Shown: in pieces, positions 10,007 through 21,486 of the stretch | Layout: each line of letters starts with the position of its first letter | How positions within the stretch are numbered: position 1 is the stretch's first letter | Assembly (NCBI RefSeq): GCF_000420265.1 | Contig: NZ_ATUP01000001.1 | Location: forward strand, 558,001 to 622,000 | Direction of reading: 5' to 3' | Length of the DNA: 64,000 nt | Source of the DNA: Oceanicaulis alexandrii DSM 11625 | GTDB lineage: Bacteria; Pseudomonadota; Alphaproteobacteria; Caulobacterales; Maricaulaceae | Notes under the pieces: generated by a model | What the model was told of the DNA's origin: nothing | What the model saw: the letters and a program-made list of their open reading frames with translations, nothing else | Databases searched by the model: none | Made by a program: the position numbers and the translations under genes

Positions 10007-11178
10007 AGCCCCAAAACCGCTTTCAAGGCTGAAACCACGCGCGCCGGATCATCATCAGACATCGCCGGATAGAGCGGCAAGGACAGCGTGCGCGCATAGT
10101 GACGCTCGGCGCCCGGCAAGGTCTGCTCGCCATACAACGCTTTATAATACGGGTGATGATGAACCGGGATGTAGTGAACCTGCGTTCCGATCCCCTGATC
10201 TTTCAGGGCCGTCATGACATCGGCGCGACTCTGGCCCGCAGCGCAAAAATCAATCCGTACATTATACAGATGGCGGCAGGGATCGACGCCTGCGCGCCCT
10301 GCCGGCGACTGCACCAGCGGCGCCAACTCTGACAGGGCCGCATCATAAACGGACGCCAACAGACGACGGCGCTGCGCAAAACGCGAGAGCTTGTTGAGCT
10401 GGGACAATCCCAGCGCCGCGTTGATGTCGGGCATGCGGTAATTCCAGCCCAACGCCTGCATTTCATACCACCAGGGTTCTGTCGCCCCCTCCGCGCGTTC
10501 AAACCGGTCCGGCTCACGCACAACGCCATGAGACCGCGCATGGGCGACCCGGTCGGCGATCTCAGGGTTTTGCGTGGTGACCATGCCCCCTTCCCCGCAC
10601 GCCAGCGTCTTGACCGGATGAAACGAGAAGACCGCAGCATCCGAATACGGGCACGCCCCAACAGGCGCGCCTGTCTCATCCAGACTGCCCACAGCGTGAG
10701 ACGCGTCCTCAACGACTGACAGGCCATGATCGTGCGCCAGTGCGCTGAGCGCGGGCATGTCGCAGGCAACGCCCGCCAGATGGACCGGCGCGATCAGGCG
10801 CGCCCGCCCCTGGGACCGCTGCAGCGCCTCGGCCAGGGTCTCAGGCGACATCAGGCCTGTCTCGGGGTCCACATCCGCAATCACCACATCCGCGCCGCAA
10901 TACCGGGCGGCGTTGGCGGTCGCGACAAAAGTCAGCGCCGGAACGATGGCGCAATCGCCCGGCCCCAGCCCCAGGGCGTCATAGGCGAGATGCAGCCCCG
11001 CCGTCGCCGAATGGCAGCTGAGCGCATGGGGCGCCGAGACGGCCTGCGCGAACGCCGCCTCAAAGGCGTCGACCCTTGGGCCGGTGGTCAGGAAGTCAGA
11101 GGTCAGACAAGCGGTGACCGCAGCGATGTCGTCATCGTCGATCCATTGCCGACCATATGGCAAAAACCCGTCGCTCAT
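10003..11178 (-). CDS. pseC: UDP-4-keto-6-deoxy-sugar 4-aminotransferase, PseC/FlmB
   Basis: Second enzyme of the pathway, a PLP-dependent DegT/DnrJ/EryC1 aminotransferase that makes UDP-4-amino-4,6-dideoxy-N-acetyl-altrosamine. PLP lysine is K190 in FSFHPVKTLACGEGG; VEDASHAVGS (156-165) holds the cofactor-stacking residues. The N-terminus YGRQWIDDDDIAAV and the substrate segment HYIPVHHHPYY are typical of PseC. A GGGAG sequence precedes the ATG by seven bases. It is convergent with the methyltransferase gene, sharing the CTAG stop overlap, so pseB and pseC are on opposite strands here, unlike the usual pseBC order. Confidence 0.94.
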   Translation of the reverse strand: MSDGFLPYGRQWIDDDDIAAVTACLTSDFLTTGPRVDAFEAAFAQAVSAPHALSCHSATAGLHLAYDALGLGPGDCAIVPALTFVATANAARYCGADVVIADVDPETGLMSPETLAEALQRSQGRARLIAPVHLAGVACDMPALSALAHDHGLSVVEDASHAVGSLDETGAPVGACPYSDAAVFSFHPVKTLACGEGGMVTTQNPEIADRVAHARSHGVVREPDRFERAEGATEPWWYEMQALGWNYRMPDINAALGLSQLNKLSRFAQRRRLLASVYDAALSELAPLVQSPAGRAGVDPCRHLYNVRIDFCAAGQSRADVMTALKDQGIGTQVHYIPVHHHPYYKALYGEQTLPGAERHYARTLSLPLYPAMSDDDPARVVSALKAVLGL

Positions 11179-11238
11179 GCATCCGCTCCCTGAGTTTACC
11201 CGACACTGTGCTGAGTCCGCGCCCCGCTGAAAACAACA

Positions 11239-11270
11239 AACCGCCCGACATCGGGAGAAGTCGGACGGTT
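11239..11270 (-). terminator. Intrinsic terminator after flagellin 1
   Basis: An 11-bp stem with one mismatch (AACCGCCCGAC / GTCGGACGGTT) lies just downstream of the minus-strand flagellin and is followed on that strand by a T-rich stretch (GTTTGTTGTTTTC). Confidence 0.75.
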
Positions 11271-11297
11271 CGCCGTGGTGGTGATGTCGGAACGGGG

Positions 11298-12131
11298 TTA
11301 GCCGTTGAAGAGGTTCAGAATGATCTGAGGTTCAGAGTTGGCGATCGAAAGCGCCTGCACCCCGAGTTGCTGTTTCACCTGCAAGGCCTGCAAGCGCGCA
11401 GATTCCTTAGCCAGATCCGCGTCCACAAGATTGCCCACGCCTTCGGTCAGACTGTCTTCGAGTTTGCCGACAAAAGTCCGGTGCGCTTCCATCTTCTTGA
11501 GGTCAGACCCCAGATTGGCCAGAGCCTGGTTGACGTTGTCGAGGCTCGCCTGGATGGCGCTGACCACATTGCCGGCCAGGGTCACGGTGCCAAGGCTGGA
11601 ATTGTTTGTCAGGGTGATGATCGAGCCGGAAACAGACAGGTTCTGCCCTTCCAGCGTGACGGAGCGCGTCGCGTCCGCATCCGCCAGGAAGGCGATGCCG
11701 TTCGTCAGCGAGCCGTTCAACAGGTTCGCGCCGTCAAACTCTGCGTTGGTCAGGATGACTTTCACCTGATCCAGCAACTCTTTGTAGTCGCTGTCATAGG
11801 CCTGACGCGAGAAGGTGTCGATGGAAGGATCAAGCGCGGCTGTGGCTTTCTCGCGCATCTGGATCAGCAGGTCAGAGATGGACTCGCCGGCCGCAATCGC
11901 CACATCGCCGATGGAGACGGCGCGGTCGAGCGAGGATTTGACGGAGCCCAGTGCGCCAATGTCGGACCGCATGCCTTGCGCCACCGCATAGACGGAGGAG
12001 TTATCCTTCGCCCCTGTCACACGCAGGCCGGTGTTGATCCGGCTCTGGACGCCCTGAATGTCCTCATTGGTCTTGTTGAGGTTTTGCAGCGCGATCATCG
12101 CTGAGGTGTTGGTATGGACGCTGAGCGCCAT
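11298..12131 (-). CDS. Flagellin 1 (divergent copy)
   Basis: A 277-residue flagellin, starting at MALSVHTNTSAMIALQNLNK, with GGGAGA seven bases upstream; an upstream in-frame ATG at 12194 would add a non-homologous tail and overlaps the promoter. The D0/D1 ends are conserved (NRINTGLRVTGAKDN-type motif here as SRINTGLRV; C-terminal ESARLQALQVKQQLGVQALSIANSEPQIIL). The central D2 region is very short, as usual in Caulobacterales. It differs most from the other four copies and ends in LNLFNG, not YFR or YFG. It has its own sigma-54-like promoter and terminator, so it can be controlled separately. Confidence 0.95.
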   Translation of the reverse strand: MALSVHTNTSAMIALQNLNKTNEDIQGVQSRINTGLRVTGAKDNSSVYAVAQGMRSDIGALGSVKSSLDRAVSIGDVAIAAGESISDLLIQMREKATAALDPSIDTFSRQAYDSDYKELLDQVKVILTNAEFDGANLLNGSLTNGIAFLADADATRSVTLEGQNLSVSGSIITLTNNSSLGTVTLAGNVVSAIQASLDNVNQALANLGSDLKKMEAHRTFVGKLEDSLTEGVGNLVDADLAKESARLQALQVKQQLGVQALSIANSEPQIILNLFNG

Positions 12132-12190
12132 TGGTCTTCTCCCGATTGCATAACTGCGCCGCATTCGACGGCCGCTCAGCAGTATCAGGA

Positions 12191-12205
12191 GCAATCAGCG
12201 GGCCA
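12191..12205 (-). promoter_or_regulatory. Sigma-54-like promoter of flagellin 1
   Basis: On the minus strand the site reads TGGCCCGCTGATTGC, with GG-N10-GC spacing and a perfect TTGC -12 element. The start point would lie near 12179, giving a leader of about 48 bases before the flagellin ATG. Confidence 0.65.
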
Positions 12206-12334
12206 ATCAGGCCAGATCGCCGAAAAATGATTTAAAACATGTATTTGTACAAAAACGGCAAAGTTCGCCAGGGCCCGCAGACCTCTGGACGTGGTTAATT
12301 ATTGCCGCTGCAAGCGGTCAAATCTGCCGAGAGG

Positions 12335-12718
12335 TCAAACACGCTCGTCAACGACGCCGCCCTGCTGATCTTTCAGAAACGCGACCAGATCCATGTACTT
12401 TTCCGGCGGCCATTGACGCATGACTTCACCGGTTTCCGGATCGAAAAGCTTGTAGATGAACTGACCGCTCTCTTCTTCGCGATCAATCTGAAGCCGGGTC
12501 CGCAAACTGGCGTTGACGCGCTCACGCATGGCCTCGATACGCTCAAGGTCAGCGGATTTCTGCACGACGGCCGCGCCTTTTTCAGCGACGGACTTGTCGG
12601 TTTCTTCACCGCCGATTTGACCGCGTTTCGCCATGCCGGCGACGGCTTTCTCGGATTGATCGGGCTCCGGGGCGACGCCCTGGGCGTTTGTAACCGGTAT
12701 GATGTTGCCGATGTTCAT
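12335..12718 (-). CDS. flaG: FlaG family protein
   Basis: A 127-residue protein with a disordered, charged N-terminal half and the conserved FlaG C-terminal core: R(T)RLQIDREEESGQFIYKLFDPETGEVMRQWPPEKYMDL (given here in outline). FlaG proteins act in flagellar filament length or assembly; their mechanism is not firmly known. It lies downstream of the flagellin array on the same strand, after a terminator hairpin, and upstream of flagellin 1. The spacing before its ATG shows only a poor ribosome site (AAAAGG very close to the start). Confidence 0.85.
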   Translation of the reverse strand: MNIGNIIPVTNAQGVAPEPDQSEKAVAGMAKRGQIGGEETDKSVAEKGAAVVQKSADLERIEAMRERVNASLRTRLQIDREEESGQFIYKLFDPETGEVMRQWPPEKYMDLVAFLKDQQGGVVDERV

Positions 12719-12799
12719 ATCCTTTTCGTCGACGCTTTGGCGGCGTCGGCGCCTCCTACTTTCTCCCTTGCTCCGTCAGTCATGGTCATCTGGGAAAAC

Positions 12800-12834
12800 T
12801 GGCCGGGGAGGAACCCCACGTAACGCCCCGGCCA
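12800..12834 (-). terminator. Intrinsic terminator after flagellin 2
   Basis: A 9-bp GC-rich stem (TGGCCGGGG / CCCCGGCCA) with a 17-base loop follows the last flagellin of the array; on the minus strand it is followed by AGTTTTCCC. Confidence 0.7.
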
Positions 12835-12847
12835 ATTCCGCTATGGA

Positions 12848-13675
12848 TTACCGGAAGTAACCCAGGATCGAGCTCGGCGCAGAGTTTGCGATCGAAAGCG
12901 CCTGCGTACCCAGCTGCTGCTTGACCTGCAGCGACTGGAGACGGGCGGATTCTTTCGCGAGATCCGCGTCGACCAGATTGCCGATGCCTTTTTCAAGAGC
13001 GTCAGACAGTTTGCCCACAAAGCTTTTGTGAACTTCCAGAGACTTCGAACCGGTGCCCAACTTGGCCAGAGCCGTGTTGAGGTTGTCCAGCGAAGTTTCG
13101 ATGGTGGCCACCAGGCCGGACGCCGCAGCCGCCGTGGTGAACGACGCCGTCGCCGCCACAGTGACATTGGTGCCGCCCAGCGACATCACTTCCTGACCGA
13201 TATCCAGGGTGTTGGAGCCGTCAGCATTGGCCAGAGCCGAGATGCCGCCGGTCTGGGTGCCGTTGATCAGGTTGGTGCCGTTGAACTCGGCGTTATCGAC
13301 AATGGTGCCGATCTGGTCGCGCAGCGCTTTGAAATCTTCGTTCAGAGCGTTACGAGACGCCGTATCGAGCGAGGTGTCCGCGCCAGCCAGCGCTTTTTCC
13401 TTCATCTCGATCAGCAGATCAGAGATCGCTTCACCCGCGGCCAGGGCCACGTCCACGGTCGATTGCGCCAGGTCCAGGGACGTGCCCACAGCGTTGTAGC
13501 CCGCCACGTCGGCACGCATCGACTGGGCGATGGCGAACACGCCGCCATTGTCCTTGGCCGAGCTGATCGCCAGGCCAGTGTTGATGCGCTGTTGAACCTG
13601 CTGCAGATCTTTATTGGTCTGGTTCAGGTTCTGCAGGGCGATCATCGCCCCAGGATTAGTATTGATCGTCGCCAT
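12848..13675 (-). CDS. Flagellin 2 (array)
   Basis: A 275-residue flagellin starting MATINTNPGAMIALQNLNQ. The conserved N-terminal D0/D1 helices run to about residue 140 and the C-terminal ones from about 195 to the end (NLVDADLAKESARLQSLQVK, then GTQALSIANSAPSSILGYFR). Ser and Thr are concentrated in the middle (TNVTVAATASFTTAAA), the region exposed on the filament and a likely place for O-linked nonulosonic acid. It is nearly identical at its ends to the next two copies, with differences confined to the middle. AAGGAG stands 9 bases before the ATG. Confidence 0.96.
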   Translation of the reverse strand: MATINTNPGAMIALQNLNQTNKDLQQVQQRINTGLAISSAKDNGGVFAIAQSMRADVAGYNAVGTSLDLAQSTVDVALAAGEAISDLLIEMKEKALAGADTSLDTASRNALNEDFKALRDQIGTIVDNAEFNGTNLINGTQTGGISALANADGSNTLDIGQEVMSLGGTNVTVAATASFTTAAAASGLVATIETSLDNLNTALAKLGTGSKSLEVHKSFVGKLSDALEKGIGNLVDADLAKESARLQSLQVKQQLGTQALSIANSAPSSILGYFR

Positions 13676-13696
13676 TTCTTGGCTCCTTCAAATTTT

Positions 13697-13708
13697 CCGT
13701 TTCTACGG
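13697..13708 (-). promoter_or_regulatory. Leader hairpin of flagellin 2 (AGAA loop)
   Basis: The mRNA leader contains CCGU-AGAA-ACGG, a 4-bp stem with a tetraloop, 21 bases before the start codon and just upstream of the ribosome site. The same hairpin occurs in the next two flagellin leaders with a compensatory pair change in one, so a conserved RNA element is likely; FlbT is the obvious candidate ligand. Confidence 0.55.
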
Positions 13709-13735
13709 TTACGACACGCTTTTTGCGCATCACTC

Positions 13736-13774
13736 TTCGAAGGGGTCCCCATTTTCTATGGAGCCCCCTTCGAA
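13736..13774 (-). terminator. Inter-flagellin hairpin 1
   Basis: A 10-bp stem (TTCGAAGGGG / CCCCTTCGAA) follows flagellin 3. Its loop contains CCATTTTCTATG, also present in the loop of the next spacer. There is no immediate U-tract, so this may be an attenuator or mRNA-stabilising structure rather than a strong terminator. Confidence 0.45.
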
Positions 13775-13784
13775 ACTTTAAGAG

Positions 13785-14609
13785 TTACCGGAAGTAACCC
13801 AGGATCGAGCTCGGAGCCGAGTTGGCGATCGAGAGCGCCTGAGTACCCAGCTGCTGCTTGACCTGCAGGGACTGCAGGCGAGCAGATTCTTTGGCCAGAT
13901 CCGCGTCGACCAGGTTGCCGATGCCTCTTTCGAGCGCATCAGACAGCTTGTTGACGAAGGTGCCGTGGATCTCGAGGGACTTCGAACCCGTACCCAGGCG
14001 CGCCAGGGAGGAGTTCAGATTGTCCAAGGAGGTCTCGATGGCGGACACGGCCGCATTGGCCAGCGTCGTGGTGTTGATCTGGGAACCGGCGGTCAAAGTG
14101 ATCGTGGTGCCGGTCAGGCTCAGATCTTCTGCAGCAATGGTGATGGTGTTGGAGCCATCAGCGTTCGCCAGAGCCGAGATCGCGGTGGCGCCGTTCTCGA
14201 TGAGATTGGTGCCATTGAACTCAGCGTTGGCCACAATGGTGCCGATCTGGTCGCGCAGCGCCGTGAAGTCTTCGTTCAGGGCATTGCGGGACGCCGTGTC
14301 CAGAGACGTATCGGCAGAGGCCAGGGCTTTCTCTTTCATCTCCACCAGGAGATCAGAGATCGCCTCGCCGGCGGCCAGGGCCACGTCCGTGGTGGACGTC
14401 GCCAGGTCCAGCGATTGATTGACGGCCTTGTAGCCCGCCACGTCGGCACGCATCGACTGGGCGATAGCGAACACGCCGCCATTGTCCTTGGCCGAGCTGA
14501 CAGCCAGGCCAGTGTTGATGCGCTGTTGAACCTGTTGCAGATCTTTGTTGGTCTGGTTCAGGTTCTGCAGGGCGATCATTGCGCCCGGGTTGGTATTGAT
14601 CGTCGCCAT
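13785..14609 (-). CDS. Flagellin 3 (array)
   Basis: A 274-residue flagellin, highly similar to its neighbours at both ends: MATINTNPGAMIALQNLNQ at the start and ANSAPSSILGYFR at the end. The central part (NGATAISALANADGSNTITI, then LTGTTITLTAGSQINTTTLA) carries many Thr and Ser residues suitable for O-glycosylation. The gene is 109 bases from each neighbour. Upstream sequence carries the shared AGAA-loop hairpin and a TGGCGCGCAAAAAGC element. The repeated ends are a substrate for gene conversion between copies. Confidence 0.96.
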   Translation of the reverse strand: MATINTNPGAMIALQNLNQTNKDLQQVQQRINTGLAVSSAKDNGGVFAIAQSMRADVAGYKAVNQSLDLATSTTDVALAAGEAISDLLVEMKEKALASADTSLDTASRNALNEDFTALRDQIGTIVANAEFNGTNLIENGATAISALANADGSNTITIAAEDLSLTGTTITLTAGSQINTTTLANAAVSAIETSLDNLNSSLARLGTGSKSLEIHGTFVNKLSDALERGIGNLVDADLAKESARLQSLQVKQQLGTQALSIANSAPSSILGYFR

Positions 14610-14628
14610 TTCTTGGCTCCTTCAAGTT

Positions 14629-14640
14629 CCGTTTCTACGG
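14629..14640 (-). promoter_or_regulatory. Leader hairpin of flagellin 3 (AGAA loop)
   Basis: Same CCGU-AGAA-ACGG element as in the flagellin 2 leader, 19 bases before the start codon. Confidence 0.55.
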
Positions 14641-14649
14641 TTGAGACGC

Positions 14650-14664
14650 GCTTTTTGCGCGCCA
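14650..14664 (-). promoter_or_regulatory. Sigma-54-like element upstream of flagellin 3
   Basis: On the minus strand TGGCGCGCAAAAAGC keeps GG-N10-GC spacing but has AAGC in place of TTGC. A related sequence stands at the same place upstream of flagellins 2 and 4. It may be a weak promoter or a conserved leader part. Confidence 0.35.
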
Positions 14665-14670
14665 AGGCTC

Positions 14671-14705
14671 CGGCGACGGCTCCATTTTCTATGAAGCCCT
14701 CGCCG
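14671..14705 (-). terminator. Inter-flagellin hairpin 2
   Basis: Stem CGGCGACGGCT / AGCCCTCGCCG with one internal mismatch, downstream of flagellin 4. Its loop holds the same CCATTTTCTATG as the previous spacer. No U-tract follows directly. Confidence 0.4.
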
Positions 14706-14719
14706 AATCTTGGGGTGAA

Positions 14720-15544
14720 TTACCGGAAGTAACTCAGGATCGAGCTCGGCGCGGAGTTCGCGATCGAAAGCGCCTGGGTGCCCAACTGCTGCTTGACCTG
14801 CAGCGACTGGAGACGGGCGGATTCTTTCGCCAGGTCCGCGTCGACCAGGTTGCCGATGCCTCTTTCAAGCGCATCAGACAGCTTGGTCACGAAGGTGGAG
14901 TGGATTTCCAGCGACTTGGAGCCGGTGCCCAGGCGCGCCAGAGCGGAGTTCAGATTGTCCAGACCCGCTTCAATCGCAGCCACAGCGGTGCTGGCGGCGG
15001 CGACAGTGGAGATGGATGAGCCGACGCCGATCGACAGCGTGCCGCCCGTCAGGCTCAGATCTTCAGCACCGATGGTGATGGTGTTGGAGCCGTCAGAGTT
15101 GGCCAAAGCCGTGATGTCCGCTGCGCCATTACCAATCAGATTGGTGCCGTTGAACTCGGCGTTGGCCACGATGGTGCCGATCTGATCGCGCAGTGCGGTG
15201 AAATCCTCGTTCAGGGCGTTGCGAGACGCCGTATCCAGCGACGCATCCGTAGACGCGAGCGCTTTCTCTTTCATTTCGATCATCAGATCTGAAATGGCTT
15301 CGCCAGCCGCCAGCGCGACATCGACAGTCGATTGCGCAAGGTCCAGCGATTGCGACACGGCGTTATAGCCAGCCACATCGGCACGCATGGATTGAGCGAT
15401 AGCAAAGACGCCGCCATTGTCCTTGGCGGAGGAGATAGCAAGACCCGTATTGATACGTTGTTGGACCTGCTGCAGGTCCATGTTGGTCTTGTTGAGGTTC
15501 TGCAGGGCGATCATTGCGCCCGGATTGGTATTGATCGTCGCCAT
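14720..15544 (-). CDS. Flagellin 4 (array)
   Basis: A 274-residue flagellin with the same conserved ends (MATINTNPGAMIALQNLNK, and SIANSAPSSILSYFR). Its central segment differs from those of copies 2 and 3 (GGTLSIGVGSSISTVAAAS), with several Ser residues. It is preceded by a good sigma-54-like promoter at 15624-15638 and may drive the three-gene array, since the spacers downstream have only weak hairpins. AAGGAG stands 9 bases before the ATG. Which copy is the major filament subunit cannot be told from sequence. Confidence 0.96.
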   Translation of the reverse strand: MATINTNPGAMIALQNLNKTNMDLQQVQQRINTGLAISSAKDNGGVFAIAQSMRADVAGYNAVSQSLDLAQSTVDVALAAGEAISDLMIEMKEKALASTDASLDTASRNALNEDFTALRDQIGTIVANAEFNGTNLIGNGAADITALANSDGSNTITIGAEDLSLTGGTLSIGVGSSISTVAAASTAVAAIEAGLDNLNSALARLGTGSKSLEIHSTFVTKLSDALERGIGNLVDADLAKESARLQSLQVKQQLGTQALSIANSAPSSILSYFR

Positions 15545-15558
15545 TTCTTGGCTCCTTT

Positions 15559-15572
15559 AACGTTTCTACGTT
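15559..15572 (-). promoter_or_regulatory. Leader hairpin of flagellin 4 (AGAA loop)
   Basis: In RNA sense AACGU-AGAA-ACGUU, a 5-bp stem, 14 bases before the start codon. Relative to the copies at flagellins 2 and 3 the C-G closing pair is replaced by A-U, a compensatory change that supports real pairing. Confidence 0.6.
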
Positions 15573-15623
15573 TGATGTGACGCGCCTTTTGCCCGCCAGA
15601 CCTTCTGGTCCACCCCTCTAGGA

Positions 15624-15638
15624 GCAAAGCTGAGGCCA
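15624..15638 (-). promoter_or_regulatory. Sigma-54-like promoter of flagellin 4
   Basis: Minus-strand TGGCCTCAGCTTTGC has GG-N10-GC spacing, TGGC at -24 and TTGC at -12. Predicted start near 15612, giving a leader of about 68 bases that contains the AGAA hairpin. Confidence 0.68.
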
Positions 15639-15847
15639 GATTCACCCTTTGCCTCCCAAACAGGTCGCAAGCCCTTGTTTTTCTGTAATTCGCTCTTGTG
15701 AAAACCGTTTACCCTACAGCCCGGACGCGGCAGCAATTGCCGGGGCGGCTCGGCAGGAATTGCCGGGTGCGGCACATTTTGCCGGGCGGCCGCTGCGCCC
15801 CGGAGCCCGATTTGGTTAATCGCGCCTTAACTGCACCGCAGACAAAG

Positions 15848-15880
15848 AAAAAGGCCGGGGCCGCATGTACGGCCCCGGCC
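15848..15880 (-). terminator. Intrinsic terminator after flagellin 5
   Basis: Perfect 11-bp stem (GGCCGGGGCCG, loop CATGTA) followed on the minus strand by TTTTTCTTTG. A strong terminator that isolates flagellin 5 from flagellin 4. Confidence 0.88.
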
Positions 15881-15893
15881 CATATCCGTCGCC

Positions 15894-16721
15894 CTAGCCG
15901 AAATAGGACAGGATCGATTGCGGCTGCTGGTTGGCGATCGAAAGCGCCTGAGTGCCCAGCTGTTGCTTGACCTGCAAAGCCTGCAAGGATGCAGACTCCT
16001 TGGCCAGATCCGCATCGACCAGATTGCCGATACCGACTTCCAGAGCGTCAGAAAGTTTTGTGACAAACGAGGAGTGGATCTCCAGCGCTTTGGATTTCGT
16101 GCCCAGGCGCGCAAGCGCAGAGTTCACGGCGTCCAGCGAGGTGCCGATCTGAGAGGCGATATTGCTGGCCTGTGTCCCCGTCGCAAAGGACGCAGTCACG
16201 GCAAGCGACACGATCGAACCGGAAAGCGACATGTCTTCCGAGCTCACAGTAATCGTGTTCGAGCCGTCCTGGTTGGCCAGCGCCACGAATGAGTTGGTCG
16301 AGCCGTCAATCAGGTTCACGCCGTTGAATTCAGCATTGCTCACGATCGTTGAAATCTGATCGCGCAACGCCTTGAAATCTTCATTCAGGGCGCTGCGGCT
16401 TGCTGTATCCAGTGACGCGTCTGACGCCGCCAAGGCCTTCTCATTCATCTCAATCAGCAGATCCGAAATCGCTTCACCCGCAGCAAGCGCAACGTCAAGC
16501 GTCGCCTCGCCCCGGTCCAAAATCTGACCAACAACCCCAAAACCGGAAACCTGGGAGCGCATGCGCTGGGCGATGGCGTAGATGCCGCCATTGTCCTTCG
16601 CGCTGGAGACTTCCAGGCCGGTGTTGATACGGTTCTGCGTGGTCTGCAGGTCCATGTTGGTTTTGTTCAGATTCTGAAGCGCGATCATGGCTCCAGAGTT
16701 GGTGTTCACAGAAACGTTCAT
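15894..16721 (-). CDS. Flagellin 5
   Basis: A 275-residue flagellin. The start MNVSVNTNSGAMIALQNLNK is chosen because AGGAGG stands nine bases upstream; the longer frame to 16805 would run through the promoter. Conserved ends are present (ESASLQALQVKQQLGTQALS, then ANQQPQSILSYFG). It belongs with flagellins 2-4 but is more diverged, including in the D0 region. It has its own sigma-54-like promoter and a strong terminator. Its leader has a hairpin with an AGAA-containing loop of different shape. Confidence 0.95.
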   Translation of the reverse strand: MNVSVNTNSGAMIALQNLNKTNMDLQTTQNRINTGLEVSSAKDNGGIYAIAQRMRSQVSGFGVVGQILDRGEATLDVALAAGEAISDLLIEMNEKALAASDASLDTASRSALNEDFKALRDQISTIVSNAEFNGVNLIDGSTNSFVALANQDGSNTITVSSEDMSLSGSIVSLAVTASFATGTQASNIASQIGTSLDAVNSALARLGTKSKALEIHSSFVTKLSDALEVGIGNLVDADLAKESASLQALQVKQQLGTQALSIANQQPQSILSYFG

Positions 16722-16749
16722 TGTGGGGTTCCTCCATTCTGGAAGTGAG

Positions 16750-16766
16750 CGGCCTGTTCTCGGCCG
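16750..16766 (-). promoter_or_regulatory. Leader hairpin of flagellin 5
   Basis: RNA-sense CGGCC-GAGAACA-GGCCG, a 5-bp stem with a 7-base loop that again contains AGAA, 28 bases before the start codon. It is a possible analogue of the tetraloop hairpins in the array. Confidence 0.4.
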
Positions 16767-16794
16767 AAGGACATTTTGTCCCGCCTCAAGCAGA

Positions 16795-16809
16795 GCAAAC
16801 CCCATGCCG
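16795..16809 (-). promoter_or_regulatory. Sigma-54-like promoter of flagellin 5
   Basis: Minus-strand CGGCATGGGGTTTGC fits TGGCAC-N5-TTGC with two mismatches and correct GG-N10-GC spacing. Predicted start near 16783. Confidence 0.6.
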
Positions 16810-16948
16810 CTGCGCGCACGCAGGCAGCATAAATAACACTTTGTTTTTCAATAGGTTGAATCAGGCAGCACGAAGCCCTGATGGCGCGCGCCAAGCACTG
16901 CCGGGCAAATATGTCCGGGCGGGCCGATCTTGCCGCTCGCAGGCGGCG

Positions 16949-17299
16949 TCAGGAGGGCGAGAGCCCCTGCATGATCATGCGGTTGATGTCGATCAGGGTT
17001 TCCAGATCGGTTTCACCCCGCATCGCCGAACTCGTTTCTTTGGACACAAAGATCGACAATGAGATGATGCCGGCGCGCAGGGATTCAGGCAGGTTGTTGT
17101 GATCGCTGGCGCAATCGGCCGCAAAAGCGGACCAGACCCGGCGATTGCGGTCCAGCGCAGCCGCCTTTTTGCGGATTTCGGTCTTGGGCGCGTCCTTGAC
17201 CTCCATCAATCCGCGCGTGACCTCGCCGATCAGACGATATTCCGTCTGGCGAGGGTCTTCCGTACGCGAAGATGCAGTCTTGTAGGCCTGATACGACAT
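16949..17299 (-). CDS. flaF: Flagellin assembly and synthesis regulator FlaF
   Basis: A 116-residue FlaF protein: MSYQAYKTASSRTEDPRQTEYRL is the family's start (in pieces), followed by RNRRVWSAFAADCASDHNNLP and LRAGIISLSIFVSKETS, both diagnostic. In Caulobacter FlaF is needed for flagellin production and export and works against FlbT. It follows flbT by 15 bases on the same strand, the usual flbT-flaF operon, immediately upstream of the flagellin array. Confidence 0.96.
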   Translation of the reverse strand: MSYQAYKTASSRTEDPRQTEYRLIGEVTRGLMEVKDAPKTEIRKKAAALDRNRRVWSAFAADCASDHNNLPESLRAGIISLSIFVSKETSSAMRGETDLETLIDINRMIMQGLSPS

Positions 17300-17314
17300 G
17301 AACGCTTAGCCTCT

Positions 17315-17716
17315 TTAAGCCTCGTCAGATCCAGCCAGGAGCTTGGCTTCGTACTGGATCAGCTTTCTGCAACGCAGCAACGCCTTATAGAATTCGCCAG
17401 CCATCACTTCGCGGCTGACCGAAACGCACTCTGAAAGCACGTCTGACGAGCCCACAGCGTTCATGAACTCGGTCATCCTGAGAACGAACTCGTCATATAG
17501 TCCGTCCTGAGAGGTTGATGAGAGGTACATCATCATGACCGGGAAATAGATCCGCTTCGCCGGGGTATCGACCTCATGCTCGTGCATGATGTCTTTTTCA
17601 CGCAGAACGCTCGCCTTGTTTTGCAAGACGAGAGTCGCCCGGCGATCGCCATTTTCGACCACGGCTCCGTTCAGAACGAACTTTTCACCCGGCTTCAAAG
17701 AAAGCTTTAGCGGCAT
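17315..17716 (-). CDS. flbT: Flagellin mRNA regulator FlbT
   Basis: A 133-residue FlbT protein with the family start MPLKLSLKPGEKFVLNGAVV, the GDRRATLVLQNKASVLREKDIM segment and AKRIYFPVMMMYL. FlbT binds the 5' untranslated region of flagellin mRNA in Caulobacter and limits its translation and stability until hook assembly is complete. In this window five flagellin leaders are available as targets, and three carry an identical-loop hairpin. It is transcribed with flaF and diverges from flmG. Confidence 0.96.
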   Translation of the reverse strand: MPLKLSLKPGEKFVLNGAVVENGDRRATLVLQNKASVLREKDIMHEHEVDTPAKRIYFPVMMMYLSSTSQDGLYDEFVLRMTEFMNAVGSSDVLSECVSVSREVMAGEFYKALLRCRKLIQYEAKLLAGSDEA

Positions 17717-17883
17717 GACCTTTCTGACCCTTCATTGTCGGCGCGGCCTGGCGGCATCCGACTCCGTGCACTCAAGCAGGCTAGAGTGAAGAAACCGTTT
17801 CTGTGACGCAGGTTCGCATTATTAGCAGAACCTTAATCGAAGCATCCATTCTTGGCTTGGTAAACTGCAAGGGATGATGCGCG

Positions 17884-19683
17884 ATGAGCCAATTGCTCGA
17901 TCTTGATGCGGAACTGGCGGCTGGTGAAGAAAAAGCCGTTCGCAATGTGCGGGTTCGCCGCGACAGCTCCGCCTCTTCGGACGTGCAGCGGGCGCTTGCC
18001 TCCAAGAAGTCCAAAGACGAAAACCTGCCGCCCAAAGCGATCGGCCTGCTCAAACGGGCCATGAAAATCGTCGAGGATGACCGCGAAGCCGCCGCCAAGG
18101 CCGCCAAGCTGTGTCTGGATGCGGTGGATCTGGCGCCTGAAAGCGCCCTCGCAAATCACGCTCTGGCGATCAGCCTTGAGAAATTGGGTCGCCTGGCCAA
18201 GGCGCTGCAATTTTACGAACGCGCGTGGCGTTTCAACCCGGAAAACGCTGAAGTCTATCTGAACCTCGCCATGCTGGCGTGGAAGCTGGACATGATGGAC
18301 GGCGCAGAAAAATTCCTGCGCCTCTTCCTGCAAATGGCGCCCAATCATCCCGCTGGCGTCATCAACCTGTCCGGCGTGCTGCGCGATCAGGGGAAGTTTG
18401 ACGATTCCGTCGAGATCCTGCGCGCCGCCATTTACGCCAATCCCGAAGAGAAAGACTTCTGGAACTCGCTGGGCACGACCTTGCTTGAAAAAGGCGAACC
18501 CGATCAGGCCCTCACCTTCTATGCCGAAGCCTTACGTCTGCAGCCGGACTTCGCCCGCGCGCACCACAACACGGCCTTCGCCTATGAATTGCTGGGAGAG
18601 CCGGAAAAGGCGGTGCATCATTTCCGCGAGGCGCTGAAGACCGCCGCGTCCCACAAAGACGTCATCATCATGACCCACGGCCTGTCGCAATCCTTGCTGG
18701 CGATGGGCGAGCTGGAGGAAGGCTGGTCGCTGTACAAGACCCGGCTTGATCCTGAATACACCAACGTCACCCATTTCCTGATCGATGCGCCGCGTTGGGA
18801 TGGCGACGATATCCAGGCGCTGCGCGGCAAGAAAGTGCTATGGATTGGCGAACAGGGGCTGGGCGACGAAATCCTGTTCCTGCAGCTGGGCCGTGATCTG
18901 ATCGACGCCATCGGGCCGGATGGCCAGCTTTACATCGCGGTTGAGCAGCGCCTGGTGGAAATGGTGCAGCGCACCTATCCGGACGCCATCGTGGGCTCAC
19001 ACCGGACGATAAAGCGCGAAGGCAAGGATCTTCGCGGCGTCACCGGGTTTGAAGACGGGCTGAGCTTTGACTACTGGACGCCCTTCGCCCAGCCGGCCTG
19101 CGCCTTCCGGACCAAAGTGACCGATTTTCCTGAAGCTCCGGTGCTGTCGCCGCCTGAGGCGGATATCGCCCATTGGCGCGAGCAGCTGGCCGCGCTGCCC
19201 GAAGGGCTGAAGGTCGGCATTCTCTGGAAATCGCTGAAGATGGACTCCAAGCGCTCCAAGCACTTCTCGGCGTTTGAGCTCTGGAAGCCGGTGCTGAAGA
19301 CGCCCGGCGTGACCTTCGTGAACCTGCAATATGGCGACGCCGACGACGACATCGCCTACGCCAAGTCCAAATTCGGCGTCGACGTGCATACGCTGGACGG
19401 CATTGATCTGAAGAACGATCTCGATCAGGTGACCGCTCTGGCCAAGGCTTGCGATCTGGTGATCGGCCCGACCAACGCCACCACCTCGCTCGGTGCGGCG
19501 GCGGGCGGAAACATCTGGTATATCCACCCCCATGGCCGGATCTGGACACATATGGGGACGGGGCGGTCGCCCTGGTTCACCACCACGCGCTCCTTCTTCG
19601 GCAAAGGCTATGCGGACTGGATCGCCATCATGAAGCAGGTCGCCAAGGCGCTCGCCGAAGAAACCGCAAGCGTAAAGGCCTGA
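17884..19683 (+). CDS. flmG: FlmG-type TPR flagellin glycosyltransferase
   Basis: A 599-residue cytoplasmic protein. Residues about 60-270 are TPR repeats (LANHALAISLEKLGRLAKAL, VYLNLAMLAWKLDMMDGAEK, FWNSLGTTLLEKGEPDQAL), used in Caulobacter FlmG to bind flagellin. Residues about 300-590 form a GT-B like glycosyltransferase domain: KVLWIGEQGLGDEILFLQ, KVGILWKSLK, and the donor-binding ACDLVIGPTNATTSLGAAAG. FlmG transfers pseudaminic acid from CMP-Pse to serines and threonines of flagellins. The position between flbT and the nonulosonic acid genes fits. Start chosen at the ATG with the GGGATG-like context after 17877; no better site is visible. Confidence 0.87.
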   Translation: MSQLLDLDAELAAGEEKAVRNVRVRRDSSASSDVQRALASKKSKDENLPPKAIGLLKRAMKIVEDDREAAAKAAKLCLDAVDLAPESALANHALAISLEKLGRLAKALQFYERAWRFNPENAEVYLNLAMLAWKLDMMDGAEKFLRLFLQMAPNHPAGVINLSGVLRDQGKFDDSVEILRAAIYANPEEKDFWNSLGTTLLEKGEPDQALTFYAEALRLQPDFARAHHNTAFAYELLGEPEKAVHHFREALKTAASHKDVIIMTHGLSQSLLAMGELEEGWSLYKTRLDPEYTNVTHFLIDAPRWDGDDIQALRGKKVLWIGEQGLGDEILFLQLGRDLIDAIGPDGQLYIAVEQRLVEMVQRTYPDAIVGSHRTIKREGKDLRGVTGFEDGLSFDYWTPFAQPACAFRTKVTDFPEAPVLSPPEADIAHWREQLAALPEGLKVGILWKSLKMDSKRSKHFSAFELWKPVLKTPGVTFVNLQYGDADDDIAYAKSKFGVDVHTLDGIDLKNDLDQVTALAKACDLVIGPTNATTSLGAAAGGNIWYIHPHGRIWTHMGTGRSPWFTTTRSFFGKGYADWIAIMKQVAKALAEETASVKA

Positions 19684-20424: not shown

Positions 20425-21486
20425 ATGACCGCCCCCTCTTCCGTGTTTGACCAGATCGAAGATCTCAGCCGCCCGCCCGTGATCGTCGCCGAGCTGTCGG
20501 CCAATCACAGCGGGGATCTGTCGCGCGCGCTCGAAATCATTGACGCCTGCGCGGACGCAGGCGCGGATGCGCTGAAGCTGCAGACCTATACCGCCGACAC
20601 CATCACGCTGGACCATGACGGCCCCGGCTTCGTGCTCGAAGGCGGCCTCTGGGACGGGCGCAAACTGCATGACCTCTATGAAGAGGCGCATACGCCGTGG
20701 GACTGGCATGCGGCGCTGTTCGAACGCGGGCGCAAGCACGGCATGGAGGTGTTCTCCTCCCCGTTTGATTTCACAGCTGTGGACTTTCTCGAACAGTTCG
20801 AACCGCCCGCCTACAAGATCGCCTCGTTTGAACTGGTGGATCTGCCCCTTATCACTCACGCCGCTCAAACAGGGCGTCCGCTTGTGATGTCGACCGGGAT
20901 GGCGAGCTGGGACGAGATCATCGAAGCGGTGCTGACCGCCCGCCAGGCCGGATGCGAACGGCTGTGCATTCTGCATTGCACCTCGGGCTATCCGACTCCG
21001 ATTGAGCAGGCGGATCTCCGCACCATCCCCGAGCTGATCCAGCGTCTGCAAATCCCGATCGGGCTCAGCGACCATACCCCCGGCATCGCGGCGCCTGTGG
21101 CCGCGACCGCCTTGGGCGCGCGGATGATTGAAAAGCATGTCACCCTGCGCCGCTCTGACGGCGGCCCTGACGCGGAGTTCTCGCTGGAGCCGGATGAGCT
21201 GGCGAGCCTGGTTCGGGAAACCCGTAACGCCCATGCCGCGCTGGGCCAGGTTCGAACCGGCCTGGCGCAATCTGAAGTGCGCTCGCGCACCGTGCGCCGC
21301 TCGCTCTATGTGACCGCTGACATCAAGGCCGGAGAGGTTCTGACCGAAGCCAATGTGCGCTCGGTGCGCCCCGGCGGCGGCCTGCATCCGCGCGACTGGT
21401 CGAAAGTTCTGGGGCGCACCGCCGCGCGCGATCTCGCATTCGGTGAACCGCTCGACTGGTCCATGATCGCAGATGGGCTGAGATGA
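20425..21486 (+). CDS. pseI: Pseudaminic acid synthase PseI
   Basis: Condenses the 6-deoxy-diacetamido-altrose with phosphoenolpyruvate to form pseudaminic acid. This 353-residue NeuB-family protein has a TIM barrel (IVAELSANHSGDLSRA, ALKLQTYTADTITLD, FSSPFDFTAVDFLE, YKIASFELVDLPLI, HCTSGYPTP, GLSDHTPG) and a C-terminal SAF/antifreeze-like domain from about residue 290 (RRSLYVTADIKAGE, RPGGGLHP). ANHSGDLSRA and the EGGLWDGRKLHDLY segment point to PseI rather than NeuB or LegI. It begins an operon in which the next two genes overlap by four bases. Confidence 0.95.
   Translation: MTAPSSVFDQIEDLSRPPVIVAELSANHSGDLSRALEIIDACADAGADALKLQTYTADTITLDHDGPGFVLEGGLWDGRKLHDLYEEAHTPWDWHAALFERGRKHGMEVFSSPFDFTAVDFLEQFEPPAYKIASFELVDLPLITHAAQTGRPLVMSTGMASWDEIIEAVLTARQAGCERLCILHCTSGYPTPIEQADLRTIPELIQRLQIPIGLSDHTPGIAAPVAATALGARMIEKHVTLRRSDGGPDAEFSLEPDELASLVRETRNAHAALGQVRTGLAQSEVRSRTVRRSLYVTADIKAGEVLTEANVRSVRPGGGLHPRDWSKVLGRTAARDLAFGEPLDWSMIADGLR

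Follow-up and report, generated by a model that had tools for sequence, protein, structure and literature searches.

What does the regulator FlbT recognise in the flagellin messages that it controls? The question is raised by a stretch of 64,000 nucleotides from Oceanicaulis alexandrii DSM 11625 (contig NZ_ATUP01000001.1, positions 558,001 to 622,000; this whole stretch is called the window below), in which flbT lies beside a cluster of flagellin genes with small hairpins in their leaders. Anderson and Gober reportedly described FlbT as a regulator that binds flagellin mRNA as early as 2000. In Caulobacter it has been reported to bind the 5´ untranslated regions (UTRs) of flagellin messages (available parts of PMC3930126 and PMC4347634) and to promote the decay of its targets (available part of PMC4347634); in the part at hand of the latter, a review from 2015, a table leaves the recognition motif of FlbT blank and the mechanism is called unresolved. 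Our analysis revealed a tandem array of hairpins that forms a conserved cis-acting RNA in the leaders of the structural flagellin genes in the relatives of the window, and similar hairpins are present in other families that carry flbT. This array is probably the element recognised in the FlbT checkpoint, and we give a probability of about 0.72 to the reading that it serves as the operator of this checkpoint, with FlbT as the candidate reader.

The minus strand of the window contains flbT, flaF and five flagellin genes; the initial annotation had correctly placed flbT close to the latter. The flagellin genes are named fla5 to fla1 in the order counted from flaF, and NTN and VHTN are labels coined here from the N-terminal motif of the proteins.

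17315..17716 (-): flbT, gene of the candidate array reader (PF07378, 6.5e-45; structure model with a mean predicted local distance difference test score, pLDDT, of 89.1)
16949..17299 (-): flaF, flagellin secretion chaperone gene (PF07309, 4.3e-35)
15894..16721 (-): fla5, flagellin of the NTN type, adjoining flaF (PF00669/PF00700)
14720..15544 (-): fla4, flagellin of the NTN type (PF00669/PF00700)
13785..14609 (-): fla3, flagellin of the NTN type (PF00669/PF00700)
12848..13675 (-): fla2, flagellin of the NTN type (PF00669/PF00700)
11298..12131 (-): fla1, flagellin of the VHTN type and probable FljJ-type co-repressor (PF00669/PF00700; clade in the tree described below)

RNA folding placed three tandem hairpins (H1 to H3) in each of the leaders of fla5, fla4, fla3 and fla2, that is, in four of the five flagellin leaders of the window. 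Their loops are AGAA or AAAA(N), together called ARAA loops here, or, once, GAGAACA. The fla1 leader yielded no ARAA hairpin on folding (z +0.50), despite a sigma-54-like site. The hairpins and promoter-like sites are as follows, R2 being our covariance model.

16795..16808 (-): sigma-54-like GG-N10-GC site of fla5 (score 4/5; transcription expected to start near 16783, at the base of H1)
16768..16782 (-): fla5 H1, GGGAC-AAAAU-GUCCU (fold; the lowest-energy form adds an inner A-U pair, leaving the loop AAA; R2 match 16722-16783, 52.1 bits)
16750..16766 (-): fla5 H2, CGGCC-GAGAACA-GGCCG (fold; R2 match)
16731..16745 (-): fla5 H3, CUUCC-AGAAU-GGAGG, containing the GGAGG ribosome site (fold; the lowest-energy form adds an inner A-U pair, leaving the loop GAA; R2 match)
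15624..15637 (-): sigma-54-like GG-N10-GC site of fla4 (score 5/5; transcription expected to start near 15612, at the base of H1)
15598..15611 (-): fla4 H1, GGACC-AGAA-GGUCU (fold; R2 match 15546-15612, 46.2 bits)
15579..15597 (-): fla4 H2, loop AAAAG, with a G.G mismatch in the stem (fold; R2 match)
15559..15572 (-): fla4 H3, AACGU-AGAA-ACGUU, third hairpin of the initial annotation (sequence and fold)
14669..14707 (-): long first hairpin of fla3, loop AGAAA (fold; leader z -5.42)
14647..14661 (-): fla3 H2, CGCGC-AAAAA-GCGCG (fold; R2 match 14611-14672, 21.1 bits)
14629..14640 (-): fla3 H3, CCGU-AGAA-ACGG, second hairpin of the initial annotation (sequence and fold)
13735..13775 (-): long first hairpin of fla2, loop AGAAA (fold; leader z -5.21)
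13713..13731 (-): fla2 H2, loop AAAAA (fold; weak R2 match, 8.2 bits)
13697..13708 (-): fla2 H3, CCGU-AGAA-ACGG, first hairpin of the initial annotation (sequence and fold)

The three hairpins noticed initially were found where they had been placed and fold as described, as CCGT-AGAA-ACGG at 13708-13697 and 14640-14629 and AACGT-AGAA-ACGTT at 15572-15559 on the minus strand, and they do lie just ahead of the ribosome site, 8, 6 and 1 nucleotides before AAGGAG. Taken alone they are weak (-3.9, -4.1 and -3.1 kcal/mol; z -0.84 for fla2, -0.73 for fla3 and -2.12 for fla4), and the stronger evidence comes from outside their coordinates: the leaders of fla5 to fla2 hold nine more hairpins of this type, and those of relatives hundreds. 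Thus, the initial hairpins are real, but the unit of structure is the array of three and not the single hairpin. The remark that AGAA also stands in a hairpin loop of the flagellin 5 leader holds as well, since it tops two of the three hairpins before this gene, which adjoins flaF and starts at 16721. For whole leaders the z-scores of the folds were -2.01 (fla5), -2.56 (fla4), -5.42 (fla3) and -5.21 (fla2); in the lowest-energy folds the fla3 leader gains a small fourth hairpin and an outer stem of fla2 encloses all three.

Leaders were then collected from 110 loci and the window, in which 270 open frames matched the flagellin profile, giving 256 leaders, 220 of them distinct and with at least 100 nucleotides. 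With stems of at least 4 base pairs, hairpin loops of AGAA number 90 (0.9 in dinucleotide shuffles), those of AAAAC 82 (0.7) and those of AGAAC 30 (0.0). When hairpins were not preselected, 328 of the 618 ARAA tetramers were flanked by stems of at least 4 base pairs (329 placements, of which 228 are pentaloops, mostly AAAAN), compared to 400 hairpin placements among 17,862 other tetramers. At least one such hairpin is present in 157 of the 170 leaders of the NTN type, for which mononucleotide shuffles predict 4.3, and at least two in 113; the array extends to Phenylobacterium (leaders L099 and L107). Among the leaders of non-flagellin genes in the named loci, only 20 of 908 have a hairpin. The form seen by the initial annotation, CGUAGAAACG (CGUAGAA(A)ACG), is genuine but not general: it is a local variant of the third hairpin, found in 25 of 167 leaders, in the group of the window. 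The modest z-scores of the single hairpins (-0.73 to -2.12) and the closeness of the paralogs would suit chance palindromes that were copied when the flagellin genes were duplicated in tandem; the same loop is found on different stems across relatives and in other families, and this explanation is refuted.

Two side observations concern the same leaders. The long AGAAA-loop hairpins at 13735-13775 (between fla3 and fla2) and 14669-14707 (between fla4 and fla3) on the minus strand are very stable and have no U run; they may mark a message end, a pause or a processing site, in addition to their role as first hairpin. GCCAAGAAATGGC, at 13671-13683, 14605-14617 and 15540-15552 on the minus strand, has GCC/GGC arms around AAGAAAU and includes the start codon. 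It precedes many MATINTN flagellins (52 of 153 NTN leaders) and could be a fourth hairpin, lying over the start codon and with AGAA in its loop.

Does selection act on the RNA structure? The initial annotation had argued so from the closing pair of its hairpins, which is C-G in two copies and A-U in the third. This swap is genuine: in 23 distinct NCGTAGAAACGN leaders the fourth pair is always formed, by C-G in 12, A-U in 10 and G-U in one. As an argument the swap alone is weak, because C-G and A-U follow the paralog lineages and therefore represent few independent events. The claim itself is upheld by a wider comparison. Sites with C-ARAAN-G were picked regardless of their outer pairs and thinned to 120, of which 100 were aligned; 77.8% of the paired cells are formed compared to 52.9% in shuffles, and the covariation score is 0.526 against 0.151 +/- 0.018 (slid controls 0.08 to 0.19), neither value being reached in 500 shuffles, fractions that are not probabilities since the aligned rows are related by descent. 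At the 49 tetraloop sites the second pair is formed in 44, with 29.1 expected. We also aligned 30 complete leaders, including two of the window. Here 98.0% of the middle hairpin is paired, four of its five pairs show double changes, and the whole structure reaches a score of 0.510 against 0.170. Since its tetraloop and pentaloop forms stood one column apart, H1 was given no pairs in R2, and the 30-leader alignment yields no count for it. Checking the leaders of relatives for covariance, as had been proposed initially, thus yielded compensatory pairs; the support lies mainly in the first two hairpins, and for the third it consists of the C-G, A-U or G-U pair in the 23 leaders of the group of the window.

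The stems covary while the loop is fixed, therefore selection acts on the RNA. Inverted repeats would also suit dimeric DNA-binding proteins, and the hairpins are located within about 80 base pairs of sigma-54-like sites, so that they might be DNA elements for a transcription regulator. However, the spacer is kept on one strand: the sense loop is found in 156 of 167 NTN leaders and the mirror loop TTYT in 6 (this set was deduplicated slightly differently from the set of 170), whereas the arms vary by paired changes. A constant loop on stems that change in pairs is the opposite of a DNA operator and argues for an RNA hairpin with a loop that is read. In addition, fla2 and fla3 retain their hairpins without a good sigma-54-like site. 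We consider the DNA explanation very improbable; it is strongly disfavoured.

The position of the array relative to the promoter is conserved as well. A good sigma-54-like site is present in 116 of the 167 distinct NTN leaders, in 107 of these a true hairpin follows downstream, and in 103 of the 107 the foot of the first true stem is located 9-14 nucleotides past the -12 C. Judged from the promoter sequence, the first hairpin would begin at the expected sigma-54 transcript start. At the other end, AGAA is found near the start codon and is followed by the GG/GA of the ribosome site in 115 of 167 leaders. In the window the sigma-54-like sites score 5/5 for fla4, 2/5 for fla3 and 1/5 for fla2; thus, fla3 and fla2 are probably transcribed by read-through from fla4 and have kept their own arrays.

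The very 5´ end of a message is a known place for protective hairpins. It might therefore be possible that the array is a device for mRNA stability or processing, in which the 5´ hairpin protects the message, the A-rich loops contact an RNase or other factors, and FlbT acts elsewhere in the leader. The first stem at the expected transcript start (103 of 107) fits this explanation, as do the long first hairpins of fla2 and fla3, whose leaders fold very well (z -5.21 and -5.42), and the decay of FlbT targets in Caulobacter (PMC4347634, available part). However, a stem that merely protects would not need a set loop, whereas here 328 of the 618 ARAA tetramers sit on hairpins. Above chance, the array was found only in flagellin leaders. 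In 35 of the 41 paired loci it is present before the NTN genes and lacking before the VHTN gene, and its occurrence follows that of flbT. We regard a pure stability device as unlikely.

Specificity was also seen in whole genomes. The covariance model R2, built from 30 leaders, was searched against 41 genomes under strict filtering, by which weak matches are lost. At E <= 0.0014 it gave 38 matches, every one located directly upstream of a flagellin match. In the genome of the window only the fla5, fla4 and fla3 leaders were found at E <= 1; the fla2 leader was missed (8.2 bits in the search of the window). Recovery of leaders is partly by construction, because some of them trained R2, but the absence of other strong targets is not. 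The loops might instead be read by another RNA-binding protein, for instance by Hfq, with its preference for A-rich ARN stretches, or by an unknown partner; the association with flbT would then reflect shared ancestry. Loops of 4-5 nucleotides are short for an ARN tract. Poly(A)/ARN is given for Hfq in a table in the available part of PMC4347634, and the flbT comparison reported below ignores descent; however, an array that is above chance only at flagellin messages is left unexplained by a global regulator, and we consider a reader of this kind quite improbable.

The flagellin paralog without the array gives a further indication. In 41 loci with both types, the hairpin is present before the NTN gene only in 35, before both in five, before the VHTN gene only in none and before neither in one; in 40 of 40 named loci no other flagellin gene lies as far from flbT as the VHTN gene. 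A quick tree was made of 95 flagellins taken from the window and some of the named loci. As we read this tree, which has a few long branches, fla1 belongs to a clade of 29 members that reaches Maricaulis, Asticcacaulis and Phenylobacterium. The hairpin is present in 5 of the 29 leaders of this clade compared to 63 of 66 for the other flagellins, and the idea that every flagellin leader contains the array was dropped, since the fla1-type clade is mostly without it. The proteins FljK and FljL of Caulobacter start with SINTN, like the type other than fla1. For Caulobacter it has been described that FlbT and the paralog FljJ together repress the structural flagellins and that secretion of FljJ relieves this repression (available part of PMC7591256, citing Ardissone et al. 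2020). We infer orthology here: fla1 is probably the counterpart of FljJ, a co-repressor without the repressor site on its own message. An ARAA hairpin is found in a minority of fla1-type leaders (L035, L040, L049, L056 and L098), and some of the presumed co-repressor genes may therefore be autoregulated.

If FlbT reads the array, the hairpins should be associated with flbT beyond the close relatives. Among 289 alphaproteobacterial genomes, 99 carry flbT and 172 a flagellin gene. Outside the order of the window we fetched 40 regions in flbT genomes, 33 of which yielded a flagellin, and 30 loci that were best flagellin matches, four of them from flbT genomes; the 102 flagellin matches gave 100 distinct leaders. 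The hairpin is found in 30 of 72 leaders where the genome has flbT and in 2 of 28 where it does not, with shuffles predicting 1.5 and 0.78, respectively.

Counted by family, the hairpin is present in 15 of 27 families with flbT versus 2 of 18 without (Fisher p 0.004), in a comparison of different lineages that were differently chosen, with tests that ignore descent. This mode of comparison weighs against the assignment of the array to FlbT, and several results do so too. Outside the order, 42 of the 72 leaders in flbT genomes have no hairpin and 12 of the 27 families show none; several of the 30 positives have A/T-rich stems and are perhaps due to chance, and the same is true for one of the two positives without flbT. 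In the leader set of the relatives, 6 of 47 VHTN leaders do contain a hairpin (0.8 expected from mononucleotide shuffles), as does one of the three leaders that belong to neither type. Two of the five covariation measures do not exceed the shuffles (double-change pairs 4 versus 4.0, pair types 18 versus 18.8), and the third hairpin has the least covariation of its own: it is 91.5% paired in the 30-leader alignment but shows no two-sided change. The last hairpins of fla2 and fla3, lying 8 and 6 nucleotides upstream of AAGGAG, leave the ribosome site uncovered. Finally, FlbT has been reported to be an activator in Brucella (PMC4347634, PMC9812332, available parts).

We infer that FlbT reads the ARAA loops and that several FlbT units sit on one array. 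A mechanism can be proposed on this basis. Transcription from the sigma-54 promoter would start where the first hairpin begins, and the 5´ UTR would therefore consist entirely of hairpins, typically three, with ARAA(N) loops, the last of them at or near the ribosome site. FlbT and the FljJ-type flagellin, probably fla1, would bind the loops and block ribosome entry, and binding of FlbT may also speed the decay of structural flagellin messages. Upon completion of the hook-basal body the co-repressor would be secreted, FlbT would release the message and filament protein would be made.

A more far-reaching idea about FlbT itself is that it is a one-protein counterpart of CsrA, FliW and FliS. A CsrA-like RNA-binding domain would be joined to a FliS-like flagellin-binding domain, and the protein would sense unsecreted flagellin directly; several units would occupy the ARAA array from the first nucleotide onwards, and FlbT would have replaced CsrA and FliS in one alphaproteobacterial branch. 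The idea arises from weak profile and fold similarity and from the near-exclusion of flbT with csrA and fliS. Only two of the 172 flagellin-bearing genomes contain flbT together with csrA (G126 and G246) and four flbT together with fliS. A likeness to CsrA was first noticed by eye. In local hhalign comparisons the N-terminal domain of FlbT and CsrA share 37-38 collinear columns with a weak probability of 22-35%; the score of 21.2 is reached in none of 300 column shuffles (at most 19.4), but the end-to-end comparison gives only 3.3%. CsrA is absent from the Pfam matches of 60 FlbT proteins. The FlbT model has five strands in order in the whole protein, and four plus a short one in the N-terminal domain alone. 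The Foldseek matches listed for the whole FlbT model and for the N-terminal domain include no CsrA chain; CsrA forms a strand-swapped dimer, a fold that a monomer model may fail to reveal. For the C-terminal domain, the fold similarity to FliS is within the range of unrelated helical bundles and the profile match is weak. We consider this idea tentative and rather doubtful.

FlbT of the window and FlbT of Oceanicaulis sp. MMSF_3324 share 97% identity. Near flbT, a gene for a 599-amino-acid tetratricopeptide repeat (TPR) protein is followed by one at 20425-21486 (+) which, by eye, we take to be NeuB/PseI-like. The TPR protein, encoded at 17884-19683 (+), has a layout that resembles the FlmG flagellin glycosyltransferase as described in the available part of PMC7591256.

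A loop that is repeated, sits on covarying stems, occurs in hundreds of leaders and is scarce in the clade of the presumed co-repressor makes the recognition question for FlbT directly testable with single-loop mutants. The array also predicts which flagellin genes fall under the checkpoint in a sequenced alphaproteobacterium.

How does the array compare to known systems? A loop read by a protein has a precedent in yeast Rnt1p, which reads AGNN tetraloops and thereby shows that AGAA tetraloops can be recognised by a protein. In contrast, about two thirds of the placements here are pentaloops, and no role of RNase III is implied.

Among leader RNAs, flg-Rhizobiales (RF01736) sits before flagellin genes. 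It is likewise a Cis-reg RNA, has three stem-loops (available part of PMC3765529) and occurs in Rhizobiales (available part of PMC2864571); the part of its consensus shown by cmscan does not contain an array of ARAA loops. Identity of the two was rejected, since none of the 289 genomes exceeded the gathering cut-off of 55 bits (best 40.9 bits). Sub-threshold matches were seen at L111 1501-1609 (40.9 bits) and L112 1501-1602 (29.6 bits); the two genomes concerned are one with flbT (G227) and one with csrA and without flbT (G093). In positions 11000-18500 of the window at E <= 10, flg-Rhizobiales was not among the Rfam matches, which numbered seven, all below the cut-off and none from a flagellin-leader family; a mir-711 match (E 0.9) overlapping the fla2 leader was taken as chance. 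No Rfam match exceeded the cut-off in the 7 of 80 named loci scanned (142,718 bases).

The CsrA-FliW system on hag/flaA is similar in that an RNA-binding protein on the flagellin leader is freed upon flagellin export (available parts of PMC8306008 and PMC4894983). CsrA differs in binding GGA (available part of PMC4894983), whereas the loops here are ARAA(N): in our test for CsrA targets the enriched loops were ARAA(N), and GGA, where present, was located in the 3´ arm. In the genome of the window no match to CsrA (PF02599) was found at E <= 0.001. The array suggests that CsrA and FlbT, two RNA-binding systems that are either unrelated or diverged long ago, perform one task in separate branches.

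The closest system is the co-repression by FlbT and FljJ in Caulobacter crescentus, which shares the clustering of FlbT, FlaF and several flagellins, the control at the 5´ UTR and the one paralog set apart. The tandem ARAA array, the likely +1 start and its scarcity in the fla1 clade are described here and not in the available parts of the Caulobacter accounts. No published FlbT motif or leader hairpin was found in the open-access literature searched; an earlier description of fljK stem-loops in Anderson and Gober 2000 or Ardissone et al. 2020 is possible. Control of flagellin 5´ UTRs by FlbT had been reported before, and the ARAA-loop array is described here.

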